From Antedon mediterranea (Eukaryota; Echinodermata; Crinoidea; Comatulida; Antedonidae), in NCBI RefSeq assembly GCF_964355755.1, contig NC_092670.1:32413795-32477794 (forward strand): a stretch of 64,000 nucleotides of DNA. Direction: 5' to 3'. Each line of letters opens with the position of its first letter. Within the stretch, counting starts at the first letter, position 1. This document shows, in pieces, positions 11,926 through 43,300 of the stretch. A model generated the notes under the pieces. It saw nothing but the letters and a program-made list of their open reading frames with translations, was not told the origin of the DNA and ran no database searches. Both the position numbers and the translations under genes were made by a program.

Positions 11926-12020
11926 TTCTGAAAAATAAATATTAAAATAACATCGGCCTACTTTATTATAAAAAAAAAATATTAATACTGTATAATATAT
12001 AGGCCTATGTTTACTATCTA

Positions 12021-12500
12021 CAAGATACAAGATAACTTTATTGTCAAAATTGTTTACAATTTCGAGATATGTTTTGTACCTGAGTAGAATAAATAATACG
12101 ATGTGATAACTATATAAATAAATACAAATGATACAAGTGACTATCTTGAAAAGTTTGTGTTAAATAAATTGCATGCTATGTACATTGGTGAAAATCTGAA
12201 ACGGTTTGTGGATATTTTTTCCTGTGTTAGTCTAACCTTTCCTGATCTACTTATAATGATGTCTGAATGTAATGGGTGTGATGGGTCTTGCATAATTGTG
12301 TCAAATTTTTTAAGTATGAATATATTAAACATTTCATCTAAAGATTTCACTTCTACACCGATAACTCTGCTGGCCTTGTTTACTAATCTCTGAATTTGAC
12401 TTTTACTGTTTACATTGATATGAGAAAACCAAACAATAATACAATAAGAAATGATTGATTGAACAACAGAGGAATACAACATATGAATGAGATGAGAACT
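12021..12500 (-). pseudogene. LINE reverse-transcriptase C-terminal remnant (L2/CR1-like)
   Basis: A minus-strand frame over 12482-12141 reads LYSSVVQSIISYCIIVWF and QIQRLVNKASRVIGVEV, typical of the domain after the palm in L2/CR1/jockey-type LINEs. It ends DPSHPLHSDI followed by RFRFSPMYIACNLFN. The 3' tail on that strand is AATAAAGTTATCTTGTATCT. SDR copy 2 has no insert at the matching place upstream of its start. Confidence 0.75.
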
Positions 12501-14248: not shown

Positions 14249-17201
14249 TCATAACCGAAATAAGAAATCTGTAACCACTGATGGCATATAGCTCAATGGT
14301 ATAAAATATAACTTTGCGTCATAACCAACGCTGTAACGTTTCTTTGGGTATTTTGCCGTCAACGCATGTTCCATAGAATTCACAACTTTACCCGTGTCCC
14401 TGGAAGGTAACGAATCCAAAGATTTGCTTACTCTGGCAATTCCTGAAAAAAAAATAGATAAAGATAGAGCATATCTAGTTGGCATTAGGCAGTTAGTTAT
14501 CTGTACAGTATGTGTTTTATTTGATCTGTCGTTTGTAAAAATGCTATAGAATCTCGCAATCCATTTCAAATCTTGGTCATTAACCCATTCTTTGTTCTAA
14601 AGCTCTGCCTACACTATCAAACTAGTTCGAAGAAAAAAGTGTGACATGCCCAAATATGGTAGTGATATGCCCAAATATGGTAGTGATATGCCCAAATATG
14701 CAGGTAATGATATGACATGATCATGTCCATATATGGGCACATCATCATCACATTTTATAGTGTAGACAGTGCTTTAAACATGCAACCCTGACTACATGTT
14801 CTTTTCGTATACTCGCATTATGTTTTTTTAAAGTTTGTTAGCGATGCGACATCTGCGTGATTTTAAATGGAAAGGAACACTTATATTCCCGCTCTCATAT
14901 ATTCCCTTTATCACCCATCATATTTCAATAGGCCTACAATAAATTAAACAGACCAATGACAATTTAGACTTTGGTGGTTCTTGAATGCGATTGAAAACGT
15001 TTAAAACTTACTACTTTCTAGAACTTCCTGGCCACCAAATTCTTGTCTAGTTTCTGGACTTAGCTCGGCCCACTTAGCCCTCACTGGAGCAAAAAAGCCA
15101 TCTGTGAGAGACGTCCTAAAAAAGCCTGGTTCAATTATGCAAACCGATATTCCAAATGCTTTCAACTGTACTCTTGAAAAAAAAGGGTATTAGCATTCAT
15201 TAGAAATAAATAATAAAACAATAATATTCGTAAAAAGAAAACCATTTTGCCATAGCTATCCTGTAGCAGATTCGAAGCGGTGGTACATAACAGAAATTGA
15301 GACGTAGGGCCAATTTACACGGACGAGCGGTAACGTTAAGAGGAAATCCGCGTAGCGTACCCAACGTAGAAATTGTATCTATCCTGAGCGGAAACCGCCC
15401 GTCCGCTCCGCGTTTTGTGTAAATGGTCATAAGGAATAACATAGATTACCATTACCGCTCTTCTGTGTAAACTGGCTTTTATGATAAGTCCAAGTAAGTA
15501 GGCCTACTTGACCTACCATGTTTAATGGGGTAGTTATTATAATATATCTTTATGGAATTGTGTATACAGATGCATAGTGAATTTTCTTGTAGCCTGTTAT
15601 TAGTGTTAACTGAAAGTATAAATTATCTAATTATTTTTTATTATTAATTGTTTTCAATTCCTCTAGCAATTACTTCTTTTCTGCTACTTTTTTTCAACGC
15701 CTACTCATCTTTGCCCGGAGCTCACTTTTAAGATTACCACCTTTATTGTTGTTAACAAACCTTATTTCGTCGGAAAAACACTCAACACCAAATTTAGAAA
15801 TACAGTATCCGGCCTCTGGCATAACAACCCTGCCGCAGATACTTGCTACATTCACTATTCTGCCTCTTCCCTGCTTCAACATGGGGGTAAACACCTTTGT
15901 TACGTCAATCAAGCCAAATAAGTTTACATCGAGGACCCTTTTGTATTCGTCCCTACTCCACCACTCCATAGCTCCACCATATCCAGTGATTCCTGCATTG
16001 TTTACAAGCCCCCACAAACCTGAAATATAGTTGTTTAAACTGATTATACTTTTCATAATGTGTATGAGTTTATTTTGCAAAACTTAACTAAATTAAATAG
16101 TTTATGACTATTTCAATTCATAATATTGTAGTAACAGAACTTCATTTTCAAAGTCCAAACAAAACAAGAAAATTCTTGAACATGAAATTAACCGGACTTT
16201 GTTGCGACCAACAGTGGTTTATATACAGTCTCCTATGGGGACACCCCTATATTAAGTGGACACTTTCACGTGAAACGAGGGGAAAAAGAATACTTGAACA
16301 ATACAGTCAACTCCTATTCATATCAGGGGACACCCCTATTAAGGGTTTGAGTGTGCCAAATAGTTGATTCAACCCTACCTACATTAGGGGACAATATTTG
16401 TTTTTCAAAAACAACAAAAAAGACCAAATAATCATATTCATTTATATCGTTATTAATACAAAAATTGAAATCATAAAAATTATGATACTTTCTTTGATTT
16501 AACATTTCTTCTAAATTTCGTAAATTCAGATCAATTTTTTTACGCGAAACCACTATTATAAAGGAAACAATTTGGTTTTCGGTTAGTGCCTCTTGAATAG
16601 GGGTTATAGCCTTATTAAGGGAAAAATTTGGTTTTTGGTTAGTTCACTCTGAATAGGGTACCCTTATTAAGGGCAAAATTTGGTTTTTGGTTAGTGACCC
16701 TGATTATGGATACCCTATTTAGGGGAAAATGTGTTGGATATAGAAGTTCTCTCCTTATTGGGGTACAGTATCTACTTACTGTATATTCGCGTCTGGTTTC
16801 CGGGGTTACAAGAAGGCCTACATCTTTAATTATAATTTATTGCTTTTCTTTATTTAATTTTTTATATTTAATTCAAACTTGCCTTCTGACTTTGGAATGA
16901 CCTCTCGTACTTTATTCAGTGCCTCCTGAACACTGCCATGATCTGCAACATTCATTAATATCGCTGATGACCGTTGCGATAGTGATGATCCCAGCTCATT
17001 TCTTGCCTTCTCGGTCAGACACGATGCGATCACGTGTATCCCCTTCCCATCTAATTGTATTGCCAGCTCGTTGCCAAAGCCAGAGTCGCACCCCGTTATA
17101 AGCACATACTTGTTGCTTAAGTTTGATATTTTTGGTATACGGAAAAGAAACTCAACTAACCAAATTAGTAAACATACACCAATAAAAATATACAAAATCA
17201 T
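14249..17201 (-). CDS. SDR9C-type retinol / 17-beta-hydroxysteroid dehydrogenase, copy 2
   Basis: Four exons: 17201-16883, 16019-15761, 15172-15012 and 14442-14249, giving 310 residues. The exon structure and phases match copy 1, including the GC donor of intron 1 (GAAG|GCAAGT). TGCDSGFG is at 36-43, NNAG at 113-116 and YCISK at 178-182, so all catalytic residues are present. Exons 1 and 2 are almost identical to copy 1. Exon 3 is 6 nt shorter and has the most replacements (GFFRTSLTDGFF against GFFKTAIADDGNVF), a region near the substrate loop in this family, so substrate use may differ (inference). The C-terminus ends FLFRL. Intron 3 is only about 0.57 kb and carries a MITE. The gene looks intact. 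Confidence 0.92.
14600..14774. mobile_element. MITE, AAGCTCTGTCTACACTATC family
   Basis: It begins AAGCTCTGCCTACACTATCA and ends TATAGTGTAGACAGTGCTT, with internal repeats TATGGTAGTGATATGCCCAAA. It lies in intron 3 of SDR copy 2. Relatives are at 40962-41660, about 47196-47300 and 52725-52884. Confidence 0.8.
16550..16735. repeat. About 53-bp minisatellite in SDR copy 2 intron 1
   Basis: About four units of the form TTTGGTTTTTGGTTAGT, a short spacer, then GAATAGGG and CCCTTATTAAGGG. The homologous intron of copy 1 has fewer units, so the array changed in number after duplication. Confidence 0.7.
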
Positions 17202-18640
17202 TTCTGAAAAATAAATATTAAAATCAAATTACTTTTTATTAAAAATAATAGAACGCTATATTTATTGTAATAGTAGGGCCTATAAGCTTAGTATCTAGAG
17301 TATTAAGGCACAAAATGACATAGTTAATAGTGAGATAGCCTACAGGTGACTTTAGTCCATGAGGGTAAAATAGTAGACAAAAGGAACGAAACGACCTAAT
17401 AATATAATGAAATATGCCACAGGTGTACTAACCCCGCCAGTCCTTCTACTAGCAACTAAGTCACAGGCTTAGGCCAAACAAATAATACTTCGGCTAGCTA
17501 CATCATCTGTCCTATGAACTTAACAAAATGTACAAATGTTTTCGTGCGATATACTGTATTATTAAGTACATACAAACCTTTTATTGAACATCGATGGTAG
17601 TGTAATAAATACTACGGGGAATTGGCCTCTATACTAATAAGGCTACAGAAAAACAAATCTTCACGCCATGCAAAGTTTAAAGTCCACACTACGTTACAAT
17701 GTAAACATTACGTCACCGCGTAATAGTGAATATTCATAGGCAATACTTAGCCAATGGAGTTGGGTGATTTTTTAAAGAATCGGACTCTCTTTTTTTGCGT
17801 ACTAAAACTACTAACCACTGAATTAAACAAAATTAAACATTAAATATTAGATGATTAACTTTTCCACAACGCGCAAATTCATTTAAAGTTCAAGTGATAA
17901 GAAAGTGAGATAGTTCTACTAATAATAATATAGTCCAAAATACATTGAAATATACTTCACAAAATAAAGTCAAAATAATACTAGATACACTGTGTAGAGA
18001 TTTAATAAACATTTTACTTACGAAATAACATTGCGGAAAAAAAATAGTACGAAATTGTGAAAAGCTCCTAAGTTTCAAAAAGGGAGTTTTAAAATTAATT
18101 ATATAGGCCTACAATAGTTTATTATCCATACAGTACGAAAGTAGGCCATACATTTTTTATTAGAAAAAAAAAAGATTTACCTCGTAATCAGCATGCACAA
18201 TTTAAAACAATTCCTGATATTAATGTAGACCCATAATAATATATATGTAGGCCTATACATTTGTATTACATTACTACGACTATAGTCGTAAAACCACACG
18301 TTAGCGCACTTTTTAGAAGTATTTTAGAGGGTGGGTTCAGTTATTAGGAGTAGGTCTAAGGAATTTTTTTATTTAACTCTATGAATCATCTTGTATTTTT
18401 ATTTTTGTATATTTTTGTATTGTTTTTAAGAGGGTCTTTTCATGTCAGCCACTGCTGTAATACGGTAAGCCTACATGTTGGAGCTAACCTCTGTAAAAAC
18501 AAAGTTGAATAAATAAATAAATTTGATGATTAGGGTAATTGGTAGTAGTACGACTGTAACATTAGTAGAATTTGTTTAGGCCTATTATTGAAATGTTTTA
18601 TCAACATTCTAGCTGATAATTCCCTTCGTAAGCACAATGG
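17202..18640. other. 5' flank of SDR copy 2 and intergenic DNA
   Basis: 17403-18180 is homologous to the copy 1 flank. Near 18400-18520 a LINE-like 3' end reads TGTAATACGG followed by AATAAATAAATAAAT. I see no exon. Confidence 0.5.
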
Positions 18641-25181: not shown

Positions 25182-28100
25182 TTAATGATCAGGACGGTAT
25201 TTTAGCATTTTTTTGTATTTGGTATTTGAATATACAGCCTCTGTATCATTACTTATTGCATTAAGATAGCGAGTGTAGTATCGTTGAGAACCACCATGCA
25301 CTAATAGAGTTGCAGGCTGGGGCGTGGGTACTAAGATTCTTCCCCACCTGACCTTCATGATATACTGGAAATAACTACTGTAGTATATTTACCGTACCTT
25401 CATTTCAATTACTGTGGGCCGGCTTGCTTGAGGCCGTAAAGCTTCCCTCACTGCTTCGTTGAACACAATATATATTAAAACAAAAGCTATTCCCTAATAC
25501 AATAAAACGATTTTGTATTATTAACTATTGACTAAAATACATCATGATTTTTATTCTGTTCATAGCAATGCATAGTTTATCGTAACATTACTTTTGTTAC
25601 TATCAAAATGAAAGTGCTACACTTTATATTTCATTATCGTTAATTAAATTCCCTGTAGGCCTAATGTATCTATATAATTAGCGCAGTATCATGGTCAAAT
25701 CCTTTAATACAGTATCATAATGCATCACATGTGACGCGAGCATCATAGGCCATAAGTCTAATCTTAACATAATACACGTGTCATATGTGATACACACTGT
25801 AACACTGTATTACAGAATTGATGATACTGGACATAACATTTTATATTTTGAAATACGTTAGAGTATAATAGAGAATCGAATGACCGGCCGTACATTATAG
25901 GCCTACAATTATTGTGTGATTTTACCTCAAGAAGCATTAGAATCGCAAATACTTGCTGTAACCGTTGACTCTGAAGTCTAATTGCAACAAGTGACGTAAT
26001 CCAACAAGAAGTTAGTAAAGCAAACAGAAGCATAGTTCCTCGTAGCTCTTTCCTTAAATGATACAAAATACAAAAGCATAAATAAAACTAAACTTCCATT
26101 TTTTCACGCTGCTGCTCTAGCCCGCGCGCTACGTCCCATTAAGACTACTCAATCAGAATCAGAAGCTAAAGCAAGCAGCAGTTATAGTTCTAAGGACAGT
26201 TTTGCGAAAATGGAAACTCCACTATAATTTATAGATTTCCAGCTGCTACTGTAGACCCAAAAAACGTCTGGGAAAAGAGTCTATTCGGACATGTCATGCT
26301 AAAATTACAAATCTCAAAGCATTTCTGGTATTTATGACTTTTGACTGTAATTCACTGTCAGATATTCATTGAATTATTATCGAAACAGTCCATTAAAGTG
26401 TGTGTTTGTAATAGGATGCTTCACACTTGAAATATCTAGGGTGATGAAGTGACCCCCAGACTTGACTTTAGCAATAAAATTAACTAAAGTGACAGAAATT
26501 GAGTATTCACTTCTGTAACAAAAAAATAATATTTATTCACATATAAAAAGAGAAAAGAAACCAAAAAACCATTGTCTGACAGACAATTTAAGTATTTGTT
26601 GCTTTAAATTACATTTTTTCAGGTAAAATAACTATTATGTGACAATAAAATGAAACATTCAAAAACATTTGAAATAAAAAATATTTTTCAATAAGCGAGC
26701 AGCGTTTTTTGTAAGAAATATTTCTTGTTTATATACTGTATGTTTTGTAGACATTTACCTTTATGTAAATGTGTGTGTAATAATGTAAATTACTTTGTTA
26801 ATTGTTTTTGAGTTATTTTTATTATTATATTGTTAATATTTCTCTACTGAACCACTTTGGAAATCAATGCTTTAGCACTGAAAGTGTAATTCAGTATAAA
26901 GACAGAATAAATAAATAAATAGTTCTTGTTTATTTTAAGAAACATCTCAAAAGTAGCTTTGTTTGCCAAGTAGTTTGGATCAGGAAAGAACTCTGTTGAG
27001 TTGGATACAGACTACATGTTTAGAATGTATTTAGTATAAAATACATGTTTAAGATAACACTATTTTTACAGTGTAGTTATAACTGGAGGTAAACAATAAG
27101 ATTAGCTGACTTTACCTTACACATCTTTTGTAGTTTGGTTTGTTGATATCTGATCGACTATACGAACAATTTAAAAATGCAGCTTCTTGGGCCGTAGAAA
27201 ACAACAAGAAAAAAAGAATTACCTATAAAATATAATACAAATACATCTTTATAATACATAACGATGAAATAAAGTCAGGTTGAATCTTTGTTGTACACCA
27301 TTGTGCTACAGAAAGATAAATGTATATCAAATGAATGAATGTTGTTATTCTACAGCTGTTCCTCAGACCTGACTTTCGAGCCTTTATTTGCCATGCAAAA
27401 TAATATTCATTTTCAAGAGGTTATGAACAATTTGGTCTATAAGTTCATTTAAAGAATTATTTAAGCTTAATGATATTTTTTCCCCTGCATTTTTTTTTTA
27501 CTATGCCATTTTAATGTCGCATAATAGTTATTCCTTCTGACCAAAAACCAAATGGAAAAAAAAAATTATTTACCTAAAAAAACTTTATTTGTCTGTTAGA
27601 CAATGAGTTTTTGGTTAAAATAAACAGTTTAGGCCTATTTTGGCTTTTAATAAGTGAGATAATTATTTTCTTTGTTTCTTTTCTATAGAAGTAAATACTG
27701 TAACTTTGTTGAAATTGCAAAATGGCTTTTTAAAAGTCTGATTTTGTTAATCTTTTTGTCTATGTTTTTGGGGACAATACATCTTTAAGCCTAGTGCTTT
27801 CTGTAAACGAACATTTTCTAGCTGAATCAAAACTTCAGAAATAGTGGAATTAGGCCTAAAAGCTTTTATTTATAGTTATGTCAATCTTTGTAAACTGTTG
27901 TCAGGTTGTGGAATAACTTAACTTATTATGTACTGCTTATTCAATGGATATGAAGTCCGAACTAACGTGAAATGAATAAATTAAATATTTCATTCATCAT
28001 TCATTTCATTTTCACATTTTAGCATTTTATTATTATTGTATTATTTGATTTTCTCAAATCACGTCATACTCACGATTGTAATCACAACGATTGGTATCAG

Positions 28101-31100
28101 GAAACACAGAAATAAGTACCATTTTCTAAAACACCTTAAAAAAAATGTACAATATAGTAATTAGCTCCTTATATGTGTATTCATGGCTAAATCACGTACA
28201 TCTCTAAAACAAATGCTACAAGCGTAGGCCTGCCATGTAATGGTAATATGAGTAATTATTATTGTCGCTAAAAAAAATTCGGAAAGTATTCCTAATTCTG
28301 CAGCTATCACTATCAAAAGTATCCAATACAGCCGGGTGTCTAGAAAACTCAGATCTAGAAAACTCAGATCTCAGATATATCTGAGTTTTCTAGATCTAGA
28401 AAACTCAGATAGGCCCTATCTGAGTTTTCTAGTTCCAAAATGGAACTAGAAAACCCAGATCATCAAATGGATCGTTCCATTATTATCAGAGGGTAGCTTG
28501 TTTGAAATGTAACTTGTAGTAACGGCTCAACGTGTGGGCGCTATCGCGATGTATCGCGAAGAGTAGGCCTGGCCCGGGTACTAGGCTAGAAGTGGTCAAC
28601 TCGTACCCAAAATAACTCGTACCTATTCCCAACTTGGCTAACTCGTACCTCAACCAACTCGTACCCACGCCCACCAACTTGTACATACCTAATTGTTAAG
28701 CCTACATTTTAACAGTAACGTGTACTGTATTTTCTTTATGATTTACCGTAAACCGCTTCTACATGTTACAATATTAGTAATAAAAAGTAGGCCTACACAG
28801 TAACCAGTTCCAATAATAATAAATAATACTCTAGTAGGCCTATTTCAAATCACCTACCTTCTGATTAATAATGGAATGATCTAAATGACCTACCAACCAA
28901 TCATATGATGATCTGAGTTTTCTAGTTCCATTTTGGAACTAGAAAACCCAGATATTGATATCTGAGTTTTCTAGATCTAGAAAAGTCAGATATCTGTCGA
29001 GTTTTCTAGATCTAGAAAACTCAGATATATCTGAGATCTGAGTTTTCTAGATCTGAGTTTTCTAGACACCCATATTCGTTTCTAAATGACTTGCGATAGT
29101 CAGTTAGGCTCTATTTAGTGACAGGTGAATAATAATCGGATGAAAGTGATACTCATGATTGAATATAGGCCTAAAAGTTATATTTCTAGAATCTAAAGCT
29201 TTTGCTTACAGCTTAGGCCTAACCCCATTCGCAACTTTAAATAATGTGCTTTGTATTCAATATTCAAACAAGGCCATGTACATGACTGCAGTTGCGTGCG
29301 CAAATTTGAGATAGTGTTTACCAACCGACCGACATAGTGAGCTAGAAATTCGCGCTGCACGCGACTAAAAATATAATTATTTATGTATACTTTAATCTGA
29401 GATTGTGAATAAGGTTGATTCGGAAAGCAACGTTTATTTGTTTTACATGCGCTAAACACATGCTGACTAACGACATGCAACCTATGAGAAGCAAAAATTC
29501 TTATTAATCTGCCGTTTCTACTTTCTGAATGATTTAACTTACTGTAATAATTCATCGTATTCTTCAAAATATATCACAGCACATATAAATACAAACACAA
29601 ACGGCAACACTAATAAAAAAGAAATATTAAGTAAAGCACATATTAAAAATAGCAATTGTTAGTAAAATTCTGTGACATTCGTAGTTAGTAATTAAAACTT
29701 TACTAAGCTTAATGATGCATCATAAGACAGTTATAATTCCGCAGTCCCGCGTTTTTAAAGGTTAGTTCCAGGTTTAAAATTTCTATTTTATATTTCACGA
29801 CATTCGTCCTGCTTCACTAGTATAAGAACATAAAATGGTTTTATTACCAATGTTGATAAAAAGGTTTACATTTTATTCTAAACAAAAATTATACCCGGAG
29901 CTACACTTTAAGGTTAAACAAAAAATTGTCGTCATTGGCTGAATGTTAACATTTACTAAAACAGAATAGAAGGCATTTATATACATCAACTGAAACCATG
30001 TAAACACAACTCTTATCTATATCAAACATTATGTTTAATTTGGTCTTACCCCATCCAGTGATGTGATAGACCCATGTGCGAACAGCGTTCTTTCGTGACG
30101 TTGCTCCAATATACAATCGTACTGATTCCAAAAACAACCAAAGAAACTGAGCTATAACCCAATATTGAAAGCCGACAACAGCCAGACGGCAAATCGTCTA
30201 ACAATTAAATTAGAAATATTACTTGGGTGGGATGAAGGTACCAATGTTGTGTTGTAATAGTGGTAGTGATAATACAGCTGTTGATAGGGGTTATGTAAAT
30301 GGAAATTAACCTGTGACCTGCCTACGGGGCTGAATTGCGCACATGTGTGGACGACACATACCACAACTTTCCACTCCCCTAAGGGTCCCTTCGTGTCGAG
30401 TGCTGCCACCAAACGGCGCTCGTTCGTCTGTCCACAACGGCAGGGGCTGAATGGACCAGTACACCGAGGTAACCCCCTACTCTTCCGAAAGTTGTACTGG
30501 GTTCTTTGAAGTGCACACGAGCCACATGTGTACACTGGACCTCCAGTTTTAAATCCTTGTCCGAGAAGACTTATTCTACCACCAAAACAATAGTCGAGGA
30601 GTGACTTGAACCTGTGTGGTGGCAGTGATGGTAGCTGTTGTGTGGGGGTGACGGTTGTTTAGATGGGTGTAACTGACAGCTATACTAATGATATGGTAAT
30701 TAACTACTATACTTACAAAATGATTTCTTGTTTCAAATGTAACAACAAATAGGATCACACTTGCTATCATAGAAAGTGCTAAACAACAGCGTACAACCAT
30801 TGTTGAAGTGTCAAAATATCTAAGAGAAAAATGTTTTCGTCATCCATTTATAAAACGGTAGTTTCAGAAATATTTTTATATCATACGTCCATAAATGGTA
30901 TACTGTTCTGTATATTCTTGTCTGAGCTGTGATGGCGCTAGTTACAATCCGTTATGCGTGATTAATTATTAGAATTACGTAATGCATAAAAGAGTTATTG
31001 TTATTACCTTAAAGATACTAGTACGAGGACGGCAATAAGTAGAAGAAATACGGTGATACTTGCACAGATGTACGTTGAAAGGATAAGCCAAGATGGCGAA

Positions 31101-34100
31101 TCAACCTATGGTCAAATTTAAATATTTATGACTGGATATATTTGCTTGTATGGTACAACAAATTCTGTACATGTTCATGTATACAAACCTATAGCTTCGT
31201 GTTGTATCTAAAGGACAGTAATATACTTTTATGTAACCGAGAAAAAGAACAAAATTTGGGTGGTCATTTCAATCTTGCAATGCAACGATGTTGATAATTA
31301 TTAATTACTGTAAACCCATATTAATCAACTTGATAGACTACTAAAGTATTTTGACTTTTAAAAATATTATAAAGATACATATAAATGTTACCGTTATTAC
31401 GCTTGGTTCACAACTTGTAAGGTTTGAAGCTATCCAAATTGCAGTTGATTCAGCTGCAACGCAAGAACGAGTCATAAATCGGTAGTCTAAAAACAAAAAT
31501 GTTAGAAATACATAAACATTACCCTGTAAATTACCCTGTAAATTACCCTCTTGGGTGAGGAAGGTTGGTTTTGACAACAAGAGATATTTGAGTGAAATCA
31601 GTTATTTAGAGTGTGACATTGCCGTAAATGTGCGCATAACCTGAGTATACTATTATAGCTGCACATTTGATTAAAACTTCTAGATTTGAATGCTGATAAA
31701 TGCAAACAAGCTATAACAATTTAAGAGGAAAGCAATACATTTGCTTGTAGTGCCATGCCTTTTTATATTAAGCGCCTAAATTCTTAATTTTCTTTTACGG
31801 CAGTTTTGAAGTTTTCTCGAGACCACGAGATACGATCTCTGTTATATGCGATTGTAATGTTTTTTAAATAAAAGATTACTACCTAAATTTTAGGCCCTAC
31901 TGCTTTTACATACTACATGTTGATCGACAACTTGACATACCTGTGGAATTAGGACACAGCATTGAAACGACAACTCCGGGTAAAGTGGGATACCAAGTTA
32001 TACCGTTAAACACCTCTTGCGTGCACCATTCTGTTGTAAATATATAAATCACAACAAATATAGAAATCAGTATAAGATTTAGATTTTAGAGAATTTAATA
32101 CTTTTCGCTCCATATTATTTTCCCTTCCCTAAATGTACTTCTGTGCTGCTATTTGCGCCCCGTATTCTTTCTTTATCAATGTACTTTTTCAATATCCCCT
32201 TCAACCTACCTTTAGACTCATTTAATAAGGGATGTGGTAGTACTGTTTGTAGAGGCCAGAAAGTAGACACAGATGGCGTACTGACAATGGAAACCGATGA
32301 TGTAGTGACAGTAGAACTTCTGACGTATAGTGGTGATGACGTAAACAGTTGAGAAGAAGAAACCAAAAACGTTGATGATGTCATCACTTCAGCAGGGATG
32401 ATGTCAATAGTTGATGTAATTTTTAGTATCGAAGATGTTAGAATCATACTCGATAGCTCAGGTGATGGCGATGGGCTTAATTCCATTAAACTTGATGAAA
32501 CGAAAAGTTCGGTTAGCGATGAAATGGAAACATACGGAGTTTGTAGTTCGAGTAAGTTTGTAGATGAAAGTTTAATTGTTAATTGTGACGAAGATATGAC
32601 ATCTGACGAAGATACGACATCTGACGAAGATATGACATCTGACGAAGATATGACGTCATGAAGTGATGATGTCAGAAGTTCGGTTGTATGATTGTTTATT
32701 ATTGTTTCTAAAGCAATGGTAAAATAAACACATGAACCGTCTAAATAAAAAAAAAATATTTGTATCTCCAGGGAAGAGTGAAATAACGATTTCACTCTTC
32801 CCTGGTATCTCGTAGTACCCCCCATATCAACGGGCCTAAGTTCTGATATGAACATTAGAAAAGACGTGATGCCCCTCTCTAACAGACGGATATTTTCGAA
32901 TAGGTCAAGAATATACCGATATTTAGCTATGTCAGAAAGTGGCTTTTAAAGAACAAGTTAGTGCAGTAAGTCAGTGACGTCAGTGATACAGTAATGTTAG
33001 TAGTGAACGTTACAATACATAATTATTATGAATATATTAACCACAGCTAAGGTTTTAAAAAGTGAGTTTCTAAATTGTATTTGGCTTCTTAAAATACTTG
33101 GCAATTCTTTTGATTTGCGAAAGCTATACAAATGGACAACGCATCAATTGTGCATGCATCCCGGCTTACGAATGAATAGTAATACCATAGAGTGGATATT
33201 TCTTTATTTATATAGCTTTGCCAAAAGAAATTGGTCTGCTCTTCCAAACCTGTTAACAGCGTTGTATCTGTTTCACCAACAGTGCTATAAGCCTCTAAAG
33301 CTGTTGTGTACGTAATGAGTGCATCAAATGATGACGTCACAGGGATTGAGGAGGAGGACACGGACGGTTCCTCCGGAAATATAACTTCAACTCCTGACGA
33401 TAAATAGAATGAATGCCATGGGTTTTGTTAAGGTGATAAATTCTACAACATTTCTTCACAAACATAAAAATACAATTTAAACATTGACAGTAACAAAATG
33501 TGATAACATAACAAATACAAATGTTGTACATATACAGAAAGAAACACACAATTCGACGCATGCGTTAAGACGTTGATAGTGTGTATCACTGATTATGTGA
33601 TGTTAATAATTAGACATATTGCATTGTTAGTTAAGTGTGATTTCACTATTTCAATATTCTATTGACGAGTATTTGCGAAACACAGAGTTAATTAAAGTAA
33701 ACTGCAGTGTTTAAATACTAATTCAAATATAAAAACAGTTTGTTTACCATGTTGATGTAGGCCTAATAGTGTATCGGTGGCCCGATCAGTGCGGATTATT
33801 AGAGGCAAGTTGTTTTGTGTGTGGGGATGGGGATGGGTCAAAAAACTACACCGTCTATTTAACAGAAGGTGTATTTGGGAAAACAACTACATGTATGATA
33901 TGTATTTGTCACTGATTTCCAACAGTTCACTATAAATGTCCTAGGCCTACGTATAATATTAACGCTTTGCGCCAAAATTGTGGAAAACCACGAAAGTATA
34001 TATCAATTATTGCTACTGCGCATGATCAGGGTAATCACCATTATTTGTACCTAATTCAAATTTACAAATAAAGCCTTTTCTCTCTGCGCATGTCCTGTCT

Positions 34101-36153
34101 CTCCATATACCCGTAGCCTTGGTGTCACCAGTCAACACATCTATACAGAATTCATCACCTGCCATAAAGGAAATTGAAAGTAACATCGGAACTGTCACCA
34201 TGGTAACATTACACACGTGACTATTGTTAGCATCTAGGCAAACCAATTATAAAATTATAAAATAATAATCATATAATATAAATAATCGACAGAAACGATG
34301 TTGTGGTGGAGTTATATTAACAAAATTAACGATGTAAATGTCTAACCCTCTACCTTACGTGGCATGCTGTAGTCCTACCACATCTCACAAAATTATACTA
34401 AGACCAAAATATGATTATTAGACGATGTCATTTTCTTAGGTATAGCCTCATATTTGGCCCATAATGCCGGTTCATGCTTAGTTATTTATTGTAAGCTGGT
34501 TCCTATCAAGGCAATCTAAAAACATGACACTGAGCTCGCCTAGTCAACATATGAACTCGTAACAGTCCTTTGATCTTATGTCTGGCTTCGACAAATATCA
34601 ACTGTAATGCACAGTACATTAGGGCGTGGAGCTGCTTGTGTCGCAGTCACAGATAAACCCTTTGATCCCAGAATCCTGTTGTTAGATTGCCTTGTTCATA
34701 CTAACCAAAGATAGCAATAACTGAACTCATAACAAACCTTCCCGGGAAAACTAAAAGCCTGTGAAAATGAGCAAGTGCAGTTTTGCACACATGCATCTCA
34801 AGTCCTCCTGATCCGTCTTTGTTGTATTGTATACTTTTGTAACTCAGCAAATATTTCTGGAATCTATAAGTAACAACTTACCGTCACGCTTGTCAGGCTG
34901 CCCAGCTTCCCACTGTGCATCTTCGTCTGCCAACGGCACATCATTCTCCCATAAATATGGCCCGGTTGGTGTGTACTGGCGTAGTCCAATCCATAAGTAA
35001 CCATTGGCAAACGGGGGATCTATTTGTTCATTGATGAATCTAGACATTTTAATGAAAAACTCATGAGACTTGTGGGAATTACGGGGCACCTCGACTCGCC
35101 CAGTCTTCGAATTACATATTAACTTAGTATTAACAGGATTAGGCCTACAATGTGATGATGAAAATTTTCATGACATTATTTGACCCATCTTTAAAAACTA
35201 AATGGCATTCTGGAAGGTCTACTCAGAAACATTTAGGGTAGGTTAGGAAATTTGGTATTTTTTTAGATAAAATGGCATGAACAAGCTACAAAACTTACAA
35301 TCGTTCTTCCTCGCTGTCAAAATAAAGAAGTCTAGAAGAGTGCTGCGATCTACAAATCGAACGTGCATCGTCCCAACTTGCGAGGTCGGAGTCTAAAGTA
35401 ATGCTGCTATTTGGATGAATAAAATAGCAAAAGTTTCCGTTAGTTAACCAAAAGGTTGGGCACTCACGTTCCTCTGAAAATAAGAATTATTAATTGTGTC
35501 AATGCTTTTGCCATTTATCACATGAGCAAAACAGTTATCATTACCGATTATCGGAACCCCACCTCCCTCCCTCTTAATTTAACTGCCCTTTACTTATGTG
35601 TTATTGTGTGCCCTATTTAATAGATATGATGTTTGTTATCCCTCTAGACCCGCCTACGCCAATGTCTTTTTCCAATCCTAAAGAATCCGTAATCATTTTT
35701 TTAAATAGAGATGTGTTAGAACCGTAATTACGTAGCCATAACATCGGCAAGGGTTCGGGTTCGGGATCACTCGCTCCATGGTGGTATAACGATAAGGAGG
35801 ACTATAAACCGTAGGTTCAGTGTACACATCTAGCTCATGTGCACTTTAAAGAACCGAGTACATCTTTCTAGACGAGTAGGGGTTCTGGTGTACTAGTAGG
35901 CCTACATTACAACCAATGATCACAACTGTGCTCTCTTTGACTGAAGAGTTCGCCCAGTATAAATAAAAAATAAATATTTCAATAGGCTTGTGATGTATTG
36001 TAGATGATAGGCGTACTTACGAATTTGTTATTTCATTTCACAGTAAAATGATGGAAATTAATGTTGTTATTTTTTCTTACCTGGTTCAAGTTGAGAGTAT
36101 CCAAACCAAAATACAGAAAGTGCGATAACAATTTGTTTCAGACCTAACGTCAT
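25182..36153 (-). CDS. C-type lectin / mucin stalk / HRM / class B seven-transmembrane receptor
   Basis: Sixteen minus-strand exons: 36153-36081, 35473-35299, 35039-34882, 34158-34051, 33393-33250, 32707-32210, 32030-31941, 31486-31392, 31105-31008, 30819-30717, 30197-30050, 29609-29543, 28125-28074, 26087-25926, 25493-25398, 25364-25182. They total 2250 nt in one frame (749 residues). Order: signal peptide (1-20); C-type lectin domain (about 28-171) with WIGL, a QPD sugar-site motif (AGQPD) and WRD; Ser/Thr-rich stalk (172-385); HRM (386-447) with WCTQEVFNGITWYP and CPNST; then seven helices, TM1 LILSTYICASITVF, TM3 ICRLAVVGFQYWVIAQFLW, TM4 GWGVLPFVFVFICAV, TM6 LLFALLTSCWITSL, TM7 EGIAFVLIYIVFNEAVREAL. 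The predicted role is a cell-surface glycan-binding G-protein-coupled receptor. No GAIN/GPS is seen between HRM and TM1. The ECL2 Cys that normally precedes Trp is Lys here (QKWY). Domain calls are by motif; the fused architecture is inferred from phase-perfect splicing. Confidence 0.85.
26088..28073. other. Receptor intron 13
   Basis: AT-rich intron with a LINE-like 3' end near 26870-26920 (AGACAGAATAAATAAATAAA), a MITE fragment near 26560-26660 and the MITE at 27472-27783. Confidence 0.5.
27472..27783. mobile_element. MITE, GATGTATTGTCCCC family (second copy)
   Basis: Left end GATATTTTTTCCCC, internal AATGTCGCATAATAGTTAT and an inverted GTCTGTTAGACAA core, right end GGGGACAATACATC. It is intronic and diverged from the 24.2 kb copy. 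Confidence 0.65.
28334..29071. mobile_element. 738-bp MITE built of CTGAGTTTTCTAGA palindromes
   Basis: It starts GGGTGTCTAGAAAACTCAGA and ends TCTGAGTTTTCTAGACACCC, exact inverted ends. Both subterminal regions repeat TCTGAGTTTTCTAGATCTAG several times and contain the hairpin CTAGTTCC/GGAACTAG. The core carries direct repeats of AACTCGTACC. It lies in receptor intron 12. A target duplication is not clear. Confidence 0.8.
32580..32656. repeat. 18-bp coding minisatellite in the receptor stalk
   Basis: Just over four units of GACGAAGATATGACATCT on the + strand encode SSSDVI/SSSDVV repeats on the minus strand within exon 6. This lengthens the Ser-rich stalk. Confidence 0.8.
32769..32804. mobile_element. 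36-bp palindromic micro-insertion with 7-bp target duplication
   Basis: CAGGGAAGAGTGAAAT, a 4-nt centre, then the reverse complement ending CCCTG. GTATCTC flanks both sides (32762-32768, 32805-32811). It lies in receptor intron 5, about 60 bp upstream of the exon 6 acceptor. Confidence 0.8.
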
Positions 36154-37377
36154 CCTTTAAATAGATCGTACTACTCACAGGTCGCTGCTGCTGTTGGTAA
36201 AAAAGAATAATATTCCTCGATGCTGAAAAACAACATTAACTTCAGCAACGTCGGTATTGTCTAAACAACCCCATCGGTAACGTTAATGCTGTTGACATAA
36301 ATTTCTACTGTCAGCTGTAGAGCAATCACTTCAATTGCTGGTATATAGCTCTGAACCCGATTGCAGATATAAAACAAACTCCTCTTCGGTAACTAACGCC
36401 AATGGTGGAAAATAATCTCCGTTTTCTCTATCTTCGACGTTGTATACCGAAAGAATAGTGTCCGCCTCGGTAACTTGTAACTTAACAGCTTTAAACCCTG
36501 AACACCTGCATAACGGATGCGATCTATTAGAATGTGAAGGAAATCAATAAGGAACGGAAGAAAACAACGTTTGAAGATAAAGAAACGATGAATGTAATCT
36601 TAATAATTATCCGAAGAAATAATAAATATTGGTCGTTATTATTATAAGGATATGATCAATCTGAAACTCGTTATTTAAATCTAAGTTATTTAGCAATAAG
36701 GCAATACTCATTAGCCTCCTCGAAGCAAACATAATGATAACTTATTCCGCAAGTAGTTTGACCAATAATGATGGACCATCCGAAATGTCGCTTTTGATTG
36801 GTCAACTCGTTTGCGTTGTGCCCCCGTCGTTGCGTTTTATTTATGTTATTTTTCTTCTTTCTTTATACTGAATGATACTTTCAGTGCTATACAGCAGTAA
36901 TTTCCAAAGTGGTTCTCAGTTGAATCGGAAATTATATAATATAATACAAAAATAATTCAAAGACAACTTCTTCTTCTTCTTTTTATTGTATCAAACAAAA
37001 ACAATTTCAATACAAAAGGTAGCCAAGATATTATAGCCGAAGCTAATCAAGCTTGGTACCTTTTATCTTAACTAACTTAAGCTACACAGTAGGCCTAATT
37101 TAAATTAATACACAAACATTTACAATAAGGTACGGTAACTACTACAAAACATACATTATATATAAATAAATAAGGAATTAAACGGCAAAACAAAATTTAA
37201 AAGGTAAAAGATACTTCTACTTAATAAGTAATATTTTGGATTTAATTTTCACAACTACATACATTTATAGTTTGTTTTTGTATCCGATTTGAAAGTTTGT
37301 TCCATAATTTGGTTGATCGATATACAAAAGTTCTTTTGCCTTGTGTATTTTCGATGATGGTTCAATAAGTTGCTGGG
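36154..37377. promoter_or_regulatory. 5' flank of the receptor gene with CCAAT-type module
   Basis: At 36762-36820 a CCAAT box, ATGGACCATCC and an inverted GATTGGTCAA occur in a compact order. The same arrangement recurs at 51849-51911, far from this gene. It could be promoter architecture or part of a dispersed repeat. The rest of the stretch shows no gene. Confidence 0.3.
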
Positions 37378-39948
37378 GATTTCAACAGTGTTGATATCTC
37401 CTCTCTAATTAAACATGTCGTTGATTTGCATCAAGTTGTTAAGGATAAAACCAGAGGAGACAAAATTCTTGATCTCATAATTTCGGACCTTAAAGATTTT
37501 TATATGACTCCTACAATTCAAGCCCGACTTGGAAAAAGTGATCACAATGTCATTTGGAGACCGCTGAACTCAATTAAGTGTAATGGTAAAATGGTTACAA
37601 AGATTTTTAAGCCTTGTACTGATTCGTCGATTACCAAATTTGACTGGTCACAGGTCTATAATATAAAAGATGTAGATGATAAAGTGAACATAATGAACGA
37701 TACCCTCACCTCCGCGTACAACAAGTTTTTTTCCTACCAAACATTTCCGAGTGTATTCTACCGATAGACCTTGGATCACTCCATACATTAAGACATTTAT
37801 CAGGTATAGACAAACTGCTTTTAGGAAGAAAAAACATGAACGTTACAAAACACTTAAGGTAATATGGGAAATAAAGAAAGCTAAGGAGAAGTAAAAGTGC
37901 TTGAGGTGAGCAATCCCCGTAAATGGTACGACAAAGTGAAGCAGATTTGTGGTAAACGTAAAGACAAATCAAGAATTACATTTGATAATCCTTTACCGAT
38001 CCCAGATTCCGTTGCCTCTAAACAAATTAATGAACACCTCGCAAAAATTTGTCGTGAACTGGATCCTCTCAAACTTGACGAATTACCTACATACCTCCCA
38101 GCTGAGAGTCCACTGCCACAAATTTTATGCTTTGAAGTTATTAACAACAATTATTAAAAGTGCAGATTAATAAATCAGTTCCACCTGGAGAAATTCCACC
38201 AGTTATCATCAAAGAATTTGCACCCGAAATAGCAGAACCTCTAACGCATATATTTAATTCTTCTTTGAAAGAAGGTATTGTACCCAAAGCTTGGAAACAA
38301 GCTACCGTTATACCGATACCAAAGAAAAAAGGTACAGTCAGTATAGAACAGATTAGACCGATCTCGCTTACGCCACTGTTTATCCGAATCTTTGAACATT
38401 TTCTAACTAAATGGTTAAAATGAAGACCTATCTACCATTATAGATAAACAGCAGTTTGGTAATGTCAAAGGTATCAGCACGAGTCATTACCTTATTGGGC
38501 TCTTACACTACCTTCTTTCTGGACTGGAAAAACCTGGTCACAAAGCACGAATTCTTGCTGTAGATTTCAGCAAAGCTTTCGACCGTATTAGTCACCAGGT
38601 ACTAATCAGTAAGATGATATCAATTGGTGTCAGGAAATCTATCATCCCGCGGTTCTGTAGCTTCCTAACTTGTAGAGAACAAAGAGTGCTCATGGTAGCG
38701 CTATTTCCAGTTGGACATCTATATTTTGCGGTGTTCCGCAAGGAACGACATCTGGCCCAAGCCTTTTCAAGTAATGGTCAATGACTCGGAATCAGATTGC
38801 ATTACAAGGTGGAAATTTGTCGACGATCTAACCTTCGCTGATATCTAAAAAAATAACTGGCTGGACTCTATTCAATCGTACTTTAGTAATTTAGTATTAT
38901 TTTAGGAATAGTGTAAAATAAATAAAATGTCCCTTAACCCTAATAAGTGTAAATCAGTGGAGATTAACTTTTGCAAAACTCCTGGTTACTATGATTTACT
39001 GACTAATAATGGAGTCCAAGTTGAGACTGTTAAGCAATTGAAGCTTTTAGGTGTAACTATCCAAGATAACCTTAAGTGGGATACACACATTGGTGAGATC
39101 GTTAGCAAGGCCAATAAAGCCATGCATATTGTATCGGTACTTAAAATGTTTGGTGTACCAGAAGATCAGTTAATCAAGATTTATAAATCTTTCATACGCC
39201 CCATAATTGAATATTCTTGTCCAACCTGGCACTCCTCCCTGACTTCCGAATTAAGCTTTGACATGGAATCGGTCCAGAAGAGGTTTTTAAAAATTGTACT
39301 AGGGAGGAGGTACTATTCGTACACTGCAGCCCTAAAGAAATTTTCTCTTGATAGGCTCTGTGACCGTCGTCTCCAGCTTGTTCTGAAGTTTGGGAGGAGT
39401 GTCCATGAAAAATTTAGTAATATTATCCCCAATACCCGTGCTGAAGCGACAGGTAGATCTCTCAGAAACGCAAACAAAATATCCCAAATTAAATGTAGAA
39501 CAGAGAGATTTAAGAAATCCTCACTCCCATTCCTGACTAACAATGACCTTATAGTGCAATAATATATATATATGAAATTCGTAATTTTGATAGATAGGCC
39601 TACGGATAATTAATAATTTTACTCGCAGTTTTTAAATTTGTAATTGTATATTCTTTTTTTTTTTTTTATGAATTTATGTGTATATATATATTTTTATATT
39701 AGATGGTTGTGTAATTTTGCTCGTTTTTTATATATATCTTTGTAAATTTGTAATTGTATATTCTTTATTTTTGTTAATGCATTTTTGTATATATATATAT
39801 ATATTTTTATATTGGATGTTTGTGTAATTTTTGCTCGTTTTTGATATATTTTTTAAGTTTATGTTACTGGACGCAATTCAGTTTTGTACTGCCATGTCTT
39901 TGTTTTTAATAAACCAGAATAAATAAATAAATAAATAAAACAATAAGT
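37378..39948 (+). pseudogene. 5'-truncated, broken jockey/CR1-like LINE
   Basis: Pieces of one polyprotein lie in order but different frames. The end of the endonuclease (KTRGDKILDLIISDL, KSDHNVIW) is followed by a linker (NPRKWYDKVKQICG). The RT start is VPPGEIPPVIIKEF and WKQATVIPIPKKKG, and the catalytic region has AVDFSKAFDRISHQ and FVDDLTFAD. The thumb and C-terminus (38927-39562) include LNPNKCKSVEINF and KLLGVTIQDNLKWDTHIG and end at TAA 39560-39562. Frame shifts and stops occur near 37765, 38155, 38421 and 38700-38870. The FVDD box replaces the usual FADD/YADD. The 3' end has AATAAATAAATAAATAAA. It cannot encode an active enzyme as it stands. Confidence 0.85.
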
Positions 39949-40311: not shown

Positions 40312-43300
40312 ATGAATTTGAAAATGAATGTTTTCCACCAAGTATATTTACTTCTACTAATTAATTTTGGTACTGCTGCTCAGGAACAGCTATGCACAAA
40401 TACCGAAAACTTAGCATGTCAATGTAAAACAAGAGATGGATTGATAGATTTAACGAGCATTGGATTAAAAGACGGAATACAGTAAGTAATGTAACCAGGC
40501 ATTGTTAGATAACCGTTACTGTAAGTGCTGCCAAGTGCTGTCTGTTAAAAGAAATAAGTGGCCTTTTTAAAAATAATGTTTATCACACACCCATACCCAT
40601 TTCCAAAGTAAATATCCGTTTGTATTCCCTGCTTTCTTTAGTAGTAATTGATATTGTTTTTAAGTAACTCCTCTTCCTTGTAAAATCAACTCATATTGCA
40701 TCTCCACCTACGGCTCTCTGCATGCTATTTCTAATGTATACATACAAATATATGTTTTCAGGTTCCAAACGTACTCGCCAGAACTGTATCCAGACCATTT
40801 TCTCTACTCATACAATCCGTGTTACGCTTTCAATGACAAAAATTGTTTAAACTCTGCGGTAATATAACTCTTTTTTTTCTGAATAACATACGATAAAACG
40901 TTATTATTAGAACGGCCTAAGTAGTTATTGGTATGACTTGTGTCGTTGACAGATACGTGTAAAGCTCTGTCTACACTATCACACTAGTTTGACAAAAAAG
41001 TGTCATATTCCCAAATATGGTAGTGATATGCCCAATTATGGTAATAATATGACATAATTAAGGGCGTGTGGCGCAGTGTGTTGGACGTTGGACTACCGAT
41101 CGTCAGACCTAGGTTCGAATCCAACTCTCGCCGCATTGCTTGTATCCGTAGGCAAGATACTTTACTTACGTTGCCTCTCTCCACCCAGGTGTATAAATGG
41201 GTACCCAGTTAGATCTAGACACAACTTGGCGCTGGTTACCGGCTGCATTATGGGAGTATGTTTCCATACGTGTTTGATCCCAAAAAACACTGGGGTAATA
41301 ATGCTTGTAAAGCGCCTTTGAGCATGATTACTCATGAAAAGGGCGCTATATAAATGTGGTATTATTATATTATATTATAATGTATGCTACAATAATGCTC
41401 TGCGCCGTATACTTAATGTCTCTAGAAGTAGCGAAAATCTACCTATGGTTTCATGCAACGTATGTTGAATAGTGGTAACATCCTTGTTGCTTGAGTTTGC
41501 AAACATATGCTCCATAACTCCAAAATGTATTGTAGATGGAGAAGCATTCTATATACTTAAGTTTAGAGTTTACGATTTTTCTTTTTTTCTGTTTTATAAG
41601 TTTATTAATATAGATGATATTTTTTTTGTGATATAACGTTTGATAGTGTAGACAGAGCTTATGCATGTCCTCTTTGTGCTGTCTTTTAAATAAAAGTTAG
41701 CTTATGTATAACTTTATAATGTAGGTATGTCAAATAGGTAGGTCATATCTTGCATGGTCAGATATAGACCTAGCGACGACATATAATACTGGAACTCAAA
41801 GTAGTGCAAGATGGGCCAAGTGTGAAGACAATCCAAGCAAGATTTGCATAACATATGCTGCCGTGCAAAATTTAGTAGTTCGGTAAGCTCGACAATATCC
41901 TCGACTAATTTTAACATGCGTTTTAAATGTGTTTCTTTTATTCTATTTACGAAATCATAGTAATTATATTCTGTTTTATCCATTTATCTACAGTACAACA
42001 ACAGTCGTACTTACCTGCGGGAACACAACAAAGCCGACTTTAATTGTAGACGGGGAAAAGAATCTCACCCACTATGTACGTATTTATTATTTGATACTTG
42101 TATAATGTATAATTTGTGTACTTAGTGTAAAATTGTTATTGTTTTTGCCTACCTATTACTGTTACTGTATATTTATAAACAGCCTAGAAAATGCTGATAA
42201 AATCCAAATACCCTTCCTAGTGAAATTGAATGACATCGAAAGTGGGAGGGTGGGTACGTGACAAATCACCTAGTTAATTGAGTTTGTCAACAAAAGTAGA
42301 AAAAAATTGAGGAGAATTTATGGCCAGGGTTCACCGTCTGCATGGTCAGTCTTCCTTTCTTACTACTCTGTATAAACTTTCATAATCCTTGGAAAAACTC
42401 CGGCAATCATAAAATGAAAAGTGAAAATAGGTAACTTTGTATTGATTGAATATACGAGCACGGCATATTATTTTACAGGTCCTGAGAATGACTTCTAAGT
42501 GTGCGTGTATTAATGGGTGTACCGGTGGTGTTGACAGTGACAACGACGGTGTTGACAGTGACAAAGACGGTGTTGGCAGTGACAACGATGGTGTTGGCAG
42601 TAACAACGGCGGTGTTGGCAGTGACAACGACGGTTTTGGTAGTGACAACGACGGTATTAGCAGTGACAACTACAGTGCTGGCAGTGACAACGACGGAGTT
42701 GGCAGTGACAACGACGGTTTTGGTAGTGACAACGATGGTGTTGACAGTGACAACGACGGTTTTGGTAGTGGCAACTACGGTGTTGGTAGTGACAACGACG
42801 GTGTTGACAGTGACAACTACGGTGCTGGCAGTGAAAACGACGGTGTTGACAGTGAAAACGACGGTTTTGGCAGTGACAACTACGGTGTTGGCAGTGACAA
42901 CCACAGTGTTGGCAGTGACAACGATTATTTTGACAGTGACAACTATTATTTTGACAGTGACGACGAGGAAACGGGCCCCAGTGTCATACTTATTCTGTGC
43001 ATTTTGTAAGTATTTTGTTAATGTTTTTACATACGCAAAGATGTGGTAATGGCGCTGCGAATTATTTATTATGTTGTTTTACAGCTGTTTGAATTTATTG
43101 CTTGATGTCGTCGCAAGTGCTGCCTATTGATGTTGTTTTTTTACAGAGTGATACTTGTTGGTAGTGATTGAAGTAGGGCCTAGTTGGTAGTTTTGTGAAG
43201 TTGTTGGAAGTGTACAGAGGTTGATTATATAGCATTAGTAGATTGATTAGGGGGTTGTGATTCGGAATAGTGGTTTCTATTTGGAGATGTCCAATCATCA

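Follow-up and report, generated by a model that had tools for sequence, protein, structure and literature searches.

A predicted lectin- and HRM-bearing class B receptor gene of Antedon mediterranea without a detected GAIN/GPS

Within a 64,000-nucleotide stretch of the Antedon mediterranea genome (NC_092670.1, positions 32413795-32477794; hereafter the window), we identified a predicted minus-strand gene at 36153-25182 that would encode a class B receptor with a C-type lectin domain, a Ser/Thr-rich stalk, an HRM and a bundle of seven transmembrane (7TM) helices. The genome comprises 354 Mb in 18 contigs, and the contig that holds the window is abbreviated C1 in locus labels. We consider it about evenly probable that this is a single gene for an adhesion-descended class B receptor that has lost GAIN/GPS, with its HRM exons spliced directly to the exon of the first transmembrane helix (TM1) at a phase-0 intron.

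Gene model and predicted domains

The sequence-derived model runs from an ATG at 36153 to a stop codon that ends at 25182; it joins 17 exons with compatible phases at every junction, and all 16 introns are GT-AG. The predicted product is 818 residues long and consists of a signal peptide, the C-type lectin domain (residues 28-206), the stalk (207-431), the HRM (432-487), the seven-helix bundle, whose TM1 exon begins at residue 494, and a short tail. In the initial annotation of the window, the same order of lectin, stalk, HRM and seven helices was assigned to 16 exons and 749 residues; the strand, the coordinates and the continuity of phase hold in our model, whereas the exon and residue counts do not. 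That annotation had also proposed a search of the product with hidden Markov models (HMMs). Run with Pfam at E ≤ 10 on the spliced model, this search returned only 7tm_2 (65.3 bits; cut-off 20.6), Lectin_C (47.0 bits; cut-off 22.6) and HRM (16.6 bits, E 0.011; below the cut-off of 26.2), and GAIN/GPS was not found. The 7tm_2 match extends over positions 6-248 of 250, in agreement with the assignment to class B.

Because the Pfam HRM score was below threshold and the HRM of the window was missing from the list of a genome-wide HRM search (17 places at E ≤ 1), as fits an HRM split across exons, we trained a dedicated HMM on the HRMs of four other loci of this genome (L010, L017, L012 and L019), with the window excluded. 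This HMM scored 23.1 bits at residues 433-488, whereas the top score among 2000 shuffled versions of the model was 7.5 bits; we take the HRM call to be sound, and the domain order given initially holds. The last HRM cysteine is residue 487. The TM1 exon therefore begins 7 residues on, as had been annotated for TM1 itself, whereas the hydrophobic core of TM1 begins only near residue 506.

The intron between the HRM and TM1 exons is 286 bp long (31391-31106). Within the three minus-strand frames of 30900-33400, Pfam at E ≤ 10 identified the HRM (12.0 bits) and a chance match to FixQ, and GAIN/GPS was not found, in line with the initial report of no GPS ahead of TM1. The idea that a GPS exon lies concealed in the HRM-TM1 interval was considered and set aside, as Pfam detected none in these frames. 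The window is also not among the best 150 of 180 GPS candidates in the genome, which alone does not prove that a GPS is absent. Adhesion receptors have the HRM ~280-330 residues ahead of the 7TM part, with GAIN between them (PMC12716839). Since GPS was not found, the receptor is predicted to have neither self-cleavage nor a tethered (Stachel) agonist.

In a hydropathy scan, all seven helices were represented by a segment, TM1 by two overlapping ones. The bundle retains the cysteines of TM3 and of extracellular loop 2 (ECL2) as well as the TM3 glutamate, and it carries Phe in place of the ECL2 Trp and Thr in place of the TM6 Gly. We also examined the exon edges with a home-made splice-aware aligner, using a profile whose letters came solely from human ADGRL3, ADGRE5 and ADGRG4; the window was aligned with them, its own letters being excluded. 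For exons 10, 12 and 15 the aligner recovered both edges, and for exons 9, 11 and 16 it recovered one; where the model has exons 13 and 14, it placed false exons. Profiles aligned without the window recovered even fewer exons. Exon 17 has an acceptor score of -2.8, under the median for AG sites in this region; if exon 16 is left unspliced, an in-frame stop follows two codons on, and the product has 764 residues. Exon 6 has an alternative in-phase acceptor 11 residues downstream.

Scanned singly, two lectin exons match Lectin_C at 14.9 and 16.4 bits, compared with 47 bits after splicing, so the lectin domain is complete only in the spliced product. Its best PDB match is E-selectin (E 2e-10), and the conserved cysteines that pair in disulfides in C-type lectins are present, as read from the sequence. 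The calcium/sugar site of C-type lectins is made up of EPN/QPD, E and WND residues. In the alignment with E-selectin, EPN, E and WND correspond to QPD, E and WRD of the predicted receptor; QPD and E are thus retained, and WND is changed. The changed Asn suggests that calcium-dependent sugar binding is weak or altered, and the ligand may be a protein rather than a glycan. With the calcium site altered in this way, the earlier description of the receptor as glycan-sensing is overstated and only a guess. The domain has no close copy in the genome, the best other match having 38% identity over 71 residues. The stalk that follows is 225 residues long with 38% Ser plus Thr, and it is probably O-glycosylated.

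Adhesion or secretin descent

The initial annotation offered two origins for the receptor, GAIN loss or the addition of a lectin and mucin module to a secretin-like receptor. We compared them with an alignment of 21 bundles: the window, 13 adhesion rows (four human and nine from this genome) and seven secretin rows. One adhesion row, L021, was so labelled by tree and profile and has no GPS listed beside it. Among the comparator models, L012 and L013+L014 are partial and were excluded from the trees, and several are uncertain in TM2 or intracellular loop 3 (ICL3).

A tryptophan in TM6 (LTW motif) is common to the window and all 13 adhesion rows, and none of the seven secretin rows has it; it is a marker that emerged from this comparison and does not formally define the class. 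The HRM of the window (GITWYP) is without the CWP cysteine, which belongs to the hormone-binding HRM fold. This cysteine is present in all four secretin-type HRMs that were read (L010, L013, L017 and L020; the 7TM model of L013 is partial) and absent from both adhesion HRMs that were read (L012 and L019). When the HRM-7TM part was aligned to PDB sequences, the adhesion receptors L3, E5, G4 and D1 ranked above VIP receptor 1. A genome search with the same part gave, at E ≤ 10, 11 matches that lie elsewhere than in the gene itself; comparison by eye showed a same-strand GPS no more than 6 kb upstream of at least 10 of them. The window scored 125 against an adhesion profile and 88 against a secretin profile, both of which are low scores.

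In both trees, the secretin rows form a clade with 100/100 support that does not include the window. In the first tree, constraining the window to group with the calcitonin-type L011 was rejected (p 0.011). In the second tree, for which the constraint groups were chosen after the first had been inspected, the window was rejected as a partner of L011 and CALCRL (p 0.041) and of L010, CRFR1 and CRFR2 (p 0.012), and its grouping with L017 or with L020 was borderline (p 0.052 each). Constraints that were not rejected in the first tree include the window with a lectin-bearing receptor cluster described below (p 0.37), with L006 (p 0.21), with the ADGRL group (p 0.13) and with L015 (p 0.08). The window lies beside L008 in the first tree (44/65) and beside the lectin-bearing cluster in the second (63/78), both positions being weak. 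We favour, without regarding it as proven, an origin by loss of GAIN from an adhesion-type receptor over the addition of modules to a secretin receptor, based on the TM6 Trp, the missing CWP cysteine, the placements with one or a few secretin receptors, which were rejected or borderline, and nearest 7TM matches that mostly lie by a GPS.

Several results weigh against adhesion descent. The window plus all secretin rows was not rejected as a group (p 0.24 in the first tree and p 0.44 in the second), and neither, with it, was a sister position to the secretin rows as a whole. The highest 7TM identity is to the secretin-type L010, at 24% over 231 columns (23% in the second alignment). The 7TM branch of the window is the longest, at 2.5 changes per column, and it has no supported position, so that any placement of the receptor within class B is tentative. 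Identity of the HRM is equal for both classes (18/55 for L010 and 15/58 for L017, which are secretin-type; 18/58 for L019 and 15/59 for L012, which are adhesion-type), and it was dropped as a class marker for this reason. Lastly, the 7TM part of the window has seven introns, with phases 2, 0, 1, 2, 0, 2 and 0, and the calcitonin-type L011+L016 matches all seven in place and phase; among 13 comparators with a modelled TM7, only L011 has an exact match to the TM7 intron.

These introns, the position of the HRM immediately ahead of TM1, the identity to L010 and the unrejected grouping with all secretin rows are what would be expected if the gene encoded a secretin-type (B1) receptor, or a sister of that whole family, to which a lectin domain and a Ser/Thr-rich stalk were added before the HRM and which may still bind a peptide. 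We regard this as unlikely, given the adhesion-type TM6 Trp, the HRM without the CWP cysteine, and the trees, in which the window is not joined to single secretin members. The introns are also shared more widely: the HRM-bearing, latrophilin-like adhesion receptor L019+L022 has the first six of the seven, which hence look ancestral. The TM4 phase-1 intron is present in seven of 14 comparator 7TMs (L010, in two of three models of that locus, L011, L015, L017, L019, L020 and L021) and absent from the other seven (L001, L003, L004, L006, L008, L009 and L012). Inspection by eye placed a phase-0 intron ahead of TM1 in the adhesion receptors L001, L009, L015 and L019 and in the secretin-type L010. 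With six of seven introns in an adhesion receptor and the pre-TM1 intron in both classes, shared introns were rejected as a class marker; most 7TM introns look ancestral to both classes and are non-decisive. On the simplest account, the ancestor would have borne an HRM and the complete set of introns, and the exons separating HRM from TM1 would have been lost from it.

Gene unity and related loci

The lectin, stalk and HRM-7TM exons likely form one gene. Exon 1 is the only exon in 46000-32032 with an ATG, a hydrophobic signal and a phase-1 donor, although other types of first exon would escape this search. The intron between exons 6 and 7 is 179 bp long, and the exon 6 donor scores 6.0, compared with a 95th percentile of 2 for local GT sites. 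Extracellular modules are commonly joined by phase-1 junctions, and for this reason the phase match between exons 6 and 7 argues only weakly for gene unity. Without splicing of exon 6, its frame reaches a stop at 32117-32115 with an ATTAAA at 32099, a possible end of a separate lectin-stalk gene.

This stop and ATTAAA raise the alternative that the model merges two adjacent genes, one for a secreted or anchored lectin-stalk protein that ends after exon 6 and the other for an HRM-7TM receptor with an unrecognised first exon. A comparable error is known from amphioxus, where a predicted Lectin_C-fn2 fusion was disproved by expressed sequence tags (PMC4967905). We nevertheless judge such a merger improbable. 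A separate receptor would have no visible start, because only exon 1 qualified as a signal-peptide exon with a phase-1 donor; the intron after exon 6 is short and has a good donor; and at other loci of this genome, a lectin part is followed by a 7TM part on a single strand.

For the genome-wide domain searches, we scored the best 150 of 537 Lectin_C, 150 of 180 GPS and 150 of 367 7tm_2 candidates in the genome, so that all counts of neighbours are lower bounds. The window itself is absent from the best 150 of 367 7tm_2 candidates, as fits a 7tm_2 domain split over exons. Among the 150 Lectin_C places, at least 12 are followed on the same strand by a GPS no more than 20 kb downstream, compared with at least three that have one upstream; counted by GPS, the pairing holds for at least eight of 150 compared with at least three of 150. 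Polycystin-1-like genes also carry a lectin domain and a GPS, and they are not 7TM receptors of this class. At C1:32.88-33.23 Mb, 0.4-0.8 Mb from the gene, at least 10 Lectin_C and at least seven GPS places lie on the minus strand, and this region (L001-L005) is a one-strand array of C-type lectin, HYR, GPS and adhesion-type 7TM parts. Lectin, HYR, GPS and 7TM parts, possibly of one gene in each case, occur in that order in L002+L001 (GPS at 22.3 bits, cut-off 22.5) and in L005+L004 (HYR at 21.4, cut-off 21.7; a reverse transcriptase lies between). On C3, L007+L006 has lectin, GPS and 7TM parts in order, again possibly of one gene.

It is very improbable that the receptor is a former member of the lectin-HYR-GPS-7TM cluster on C1 that lost GAIN/GPS and now lies 0.4-0.8 Mb off: the shared chromosome and type of N-terminal domain, the neighbouring position in the second tree and the unrejected grouping with the cluster are consistent with it, whereas the three modelled cluster 7TMs are without two introns of the window (TM4 and TM7), which weakens the idea of a recent copy, Pfam scans of cluster loci gave no HRM match (E ≤ 1 for L001 and L002, E ≤ 0.1 for L005), and none of the 28 other genome places that match the lectin domain of the window lies inside the cluster.

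As a separate observation, C7:2285068-2320980 has at least 11 GPS places in 36 kb on one strand, 10 of which share one score, suggesting a recent tandem array.

Coordinates of the exons, which are numbered from the start codon, are collected in Table 1.

Table 1. Exons of the predicted receptor gene, in positions of the window; edges are those recovered by the independent splice-aware profile.
Exon	Coordinates	Strand	Content	Phase	Edges recovered
1	36081..36153	-	Start codon and signal peptide	phase-1 donor	
2	35299..35473	-	C-type lectin domain, first part		
3	34882..35144	-	C-type lectin domain, middle; WIGL and QPD motifs		
4	34051..34158	-	C-type lectin domain, end (GIWRDRTC...GFICKF)		
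5	33250..33393	-	Start of Ser/Thr-rich stalk	1-1, symmetric	
6	32210..32740	-	Ser/Thr-rich stalk; within 276-codon open frame 32118-32945	1-1, symmetric	
7	31941..32030	-	HRM, first half	1-1	
8	31392..31486	-	HRM, second half	1-0	
9	31008..31105	-	TM1	0-2	one
10	30717..30819	-	TM2	2-0	both
11	30050..30197	-	TM3 and start of TM4	0-1	one
12	29543..29609	-	TM4	1-2	both
13	28074..28134	-	ECL2 cysteine and TM5	2-0	missed
14	27116..27222	-	End of TM5 and ICL3	0-2	missed
15	25926..26052	-	TM6, with adhesion-type Trp, and start of TM7	2-0	both
16	25398..25493	-	TM7	0-0	one
17	25182..25352	-	Cytoplasmic tail and stop; poor acceptor, uncertain		

Other features of the window were also noted. Intron 12 holds a foldback element at 28334-29071, with 73-bp terminal inverted repeats that are 100% complementary and 592 bp apart; it is built of short repeats around ATCTGAGTTTTCTAGA. 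On the plus strand, 37369-39559 contains open frames that look by eye like parts of a non-LTR retroelement, with stretches similar to an endonuclease and to a reverse transcriptase; Pfam at E ≤ 0.1 gave no match for 38912-39559, the only part that was scanned. Pieces of a short-chain dehydrogenase lie on the minus strand at 11575-12159, 15697-16083 and 16857-17228, the first and third of which are near-identical in sequence, suggesting a tandem duplicate. A low-complexity tandem repeat at 42349-43078 is open in several frames on both strands.

Known systems and implications

The combination of a lectin domain with a class B G protein-coupled receptor (GPCR) is already known. In Trichoplax sp. 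H2, 28 of 36 C-type lectin domain receptors are GPCRs of the secretin/adhesion family (PMC6321704). Like the window, these placozoan receptors have a C-type lectin ectodomain and a class B seven-helix bundle, a likeness of architecture that does not imply kinship; unlike for the window, an HRM or a Ser/Thr-rich stalk is not mentioned in the available part of that source. In amphioxus, an adhesion GPCR with a Lectin C-type domain has been described (PMC2246102), which likewise places Lectin_C on a class B GPCR; however, it has other extracellular domains (PMC6321704), and a GAIN-less layout with HRM is not described in the available part of PMC2246102.

Within this genome, the HRM-GAIN-7TM receptor of latrophilin type (L019+L022, C6:25.36 Mb) resembles the window in its TM6 Trp, in a phase-1 intron in the HRM after the CP motif, in the phase-0 intron before TM1 and in the first six 7TM introns. 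It differs in the distance between HRM and 7TM, which is ~280-330 residues in this type (PMC12716839), whereas the HRM exon of the window adjoins the TM1 exon. The secretin-type receptors (CRF-type L010 and calcitonin-type L011+L016) resemble the window in having the HRM adjoin TM1, in the phases of the L010 HRM exons and in all seven 7TM introns of L011+L016, and they differ from it in the TM6 residue and in the CWP cysteine, the trees not joining the window with single members. The lectin-HYR-GPS-7TM cluster resembles the window in placing a C-type lectin domain ahead of a class B 7TM part on one strand; unlike the window, it has GPS and HYR, two fewer 7TM introns and no HRM found in the scanned loci.

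The contrast on which the initial annotation relied, in which an HRM marks secretin receptors and GAIN/GPS marks adhesion receptors, is incomplete, as many adhesion GPCRs also bear an HRM (PMC13197933). Some sponge adhesion receptors are without GPS, and at least eight have an HRM (PMC4302439); because of these cases, adhesion members without a GPS are not novel per se. The initial suggestion that the domain order looks new is overstated. Lectin-bearing class B GPCRs are known from Trichoplax, amphioxus and the cluster in the same genome, whereas a GAIN-less lectin-stalk-HRM-7TM receptor was not found in the literature searched, which was limited, most subscription papers lying outside its coverage; the GAIN-less layout looks like a new form of a known type of receptor.

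If the receptor is an adhesion descendant without GAIN, the N-terminal lectin, set away from the membrane by the 225-residue stalk, would capture a glycan or protein ligand, and the signal would reach the bundle through the stalk and the HRM. There would be no self-cleavage and no Stachel agonist, and the bound lectin/HRM ectodomain would act on the 7TM part directly, via ligand contact, clustering or relief of inhibition. Because the block of exons 2-4, exon 5 and exon 6 are each phase 1-1, splicing could skip the lectin domain or the stalk in frame; the phases would also permit isoforms in which exon 1 is joined to exon 7.

GAIN is usually taken to have been lost on the path from adhesion to secretin receptors. 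Secretin receptors, which are without GPS (PMC2246102), have been proposed to be descendants of adhesion GPCRs (PMC4302439). With somewhat less than even confidence, we suggest that the gene may record a second, independent transition from an adhesion to a secretin-like receptor, in which GAIN loss put the HRM on TM1 and yielded a lectin-gated class B GPCR without cleavage or a tethered agonist. If so, GAIN loss in class B receptors can occur more than once, and the receptor would offer a system for asking how an ectodomain activates a class B receptor without a tethered agonist. It would also add another animal genome to those of placozoans and amphioxus in which lectin-bearing GPCRs are known, and the second transition would be either a repeat of the step from which hormone receptors possibly arose or a surviving stem lineage of that step.

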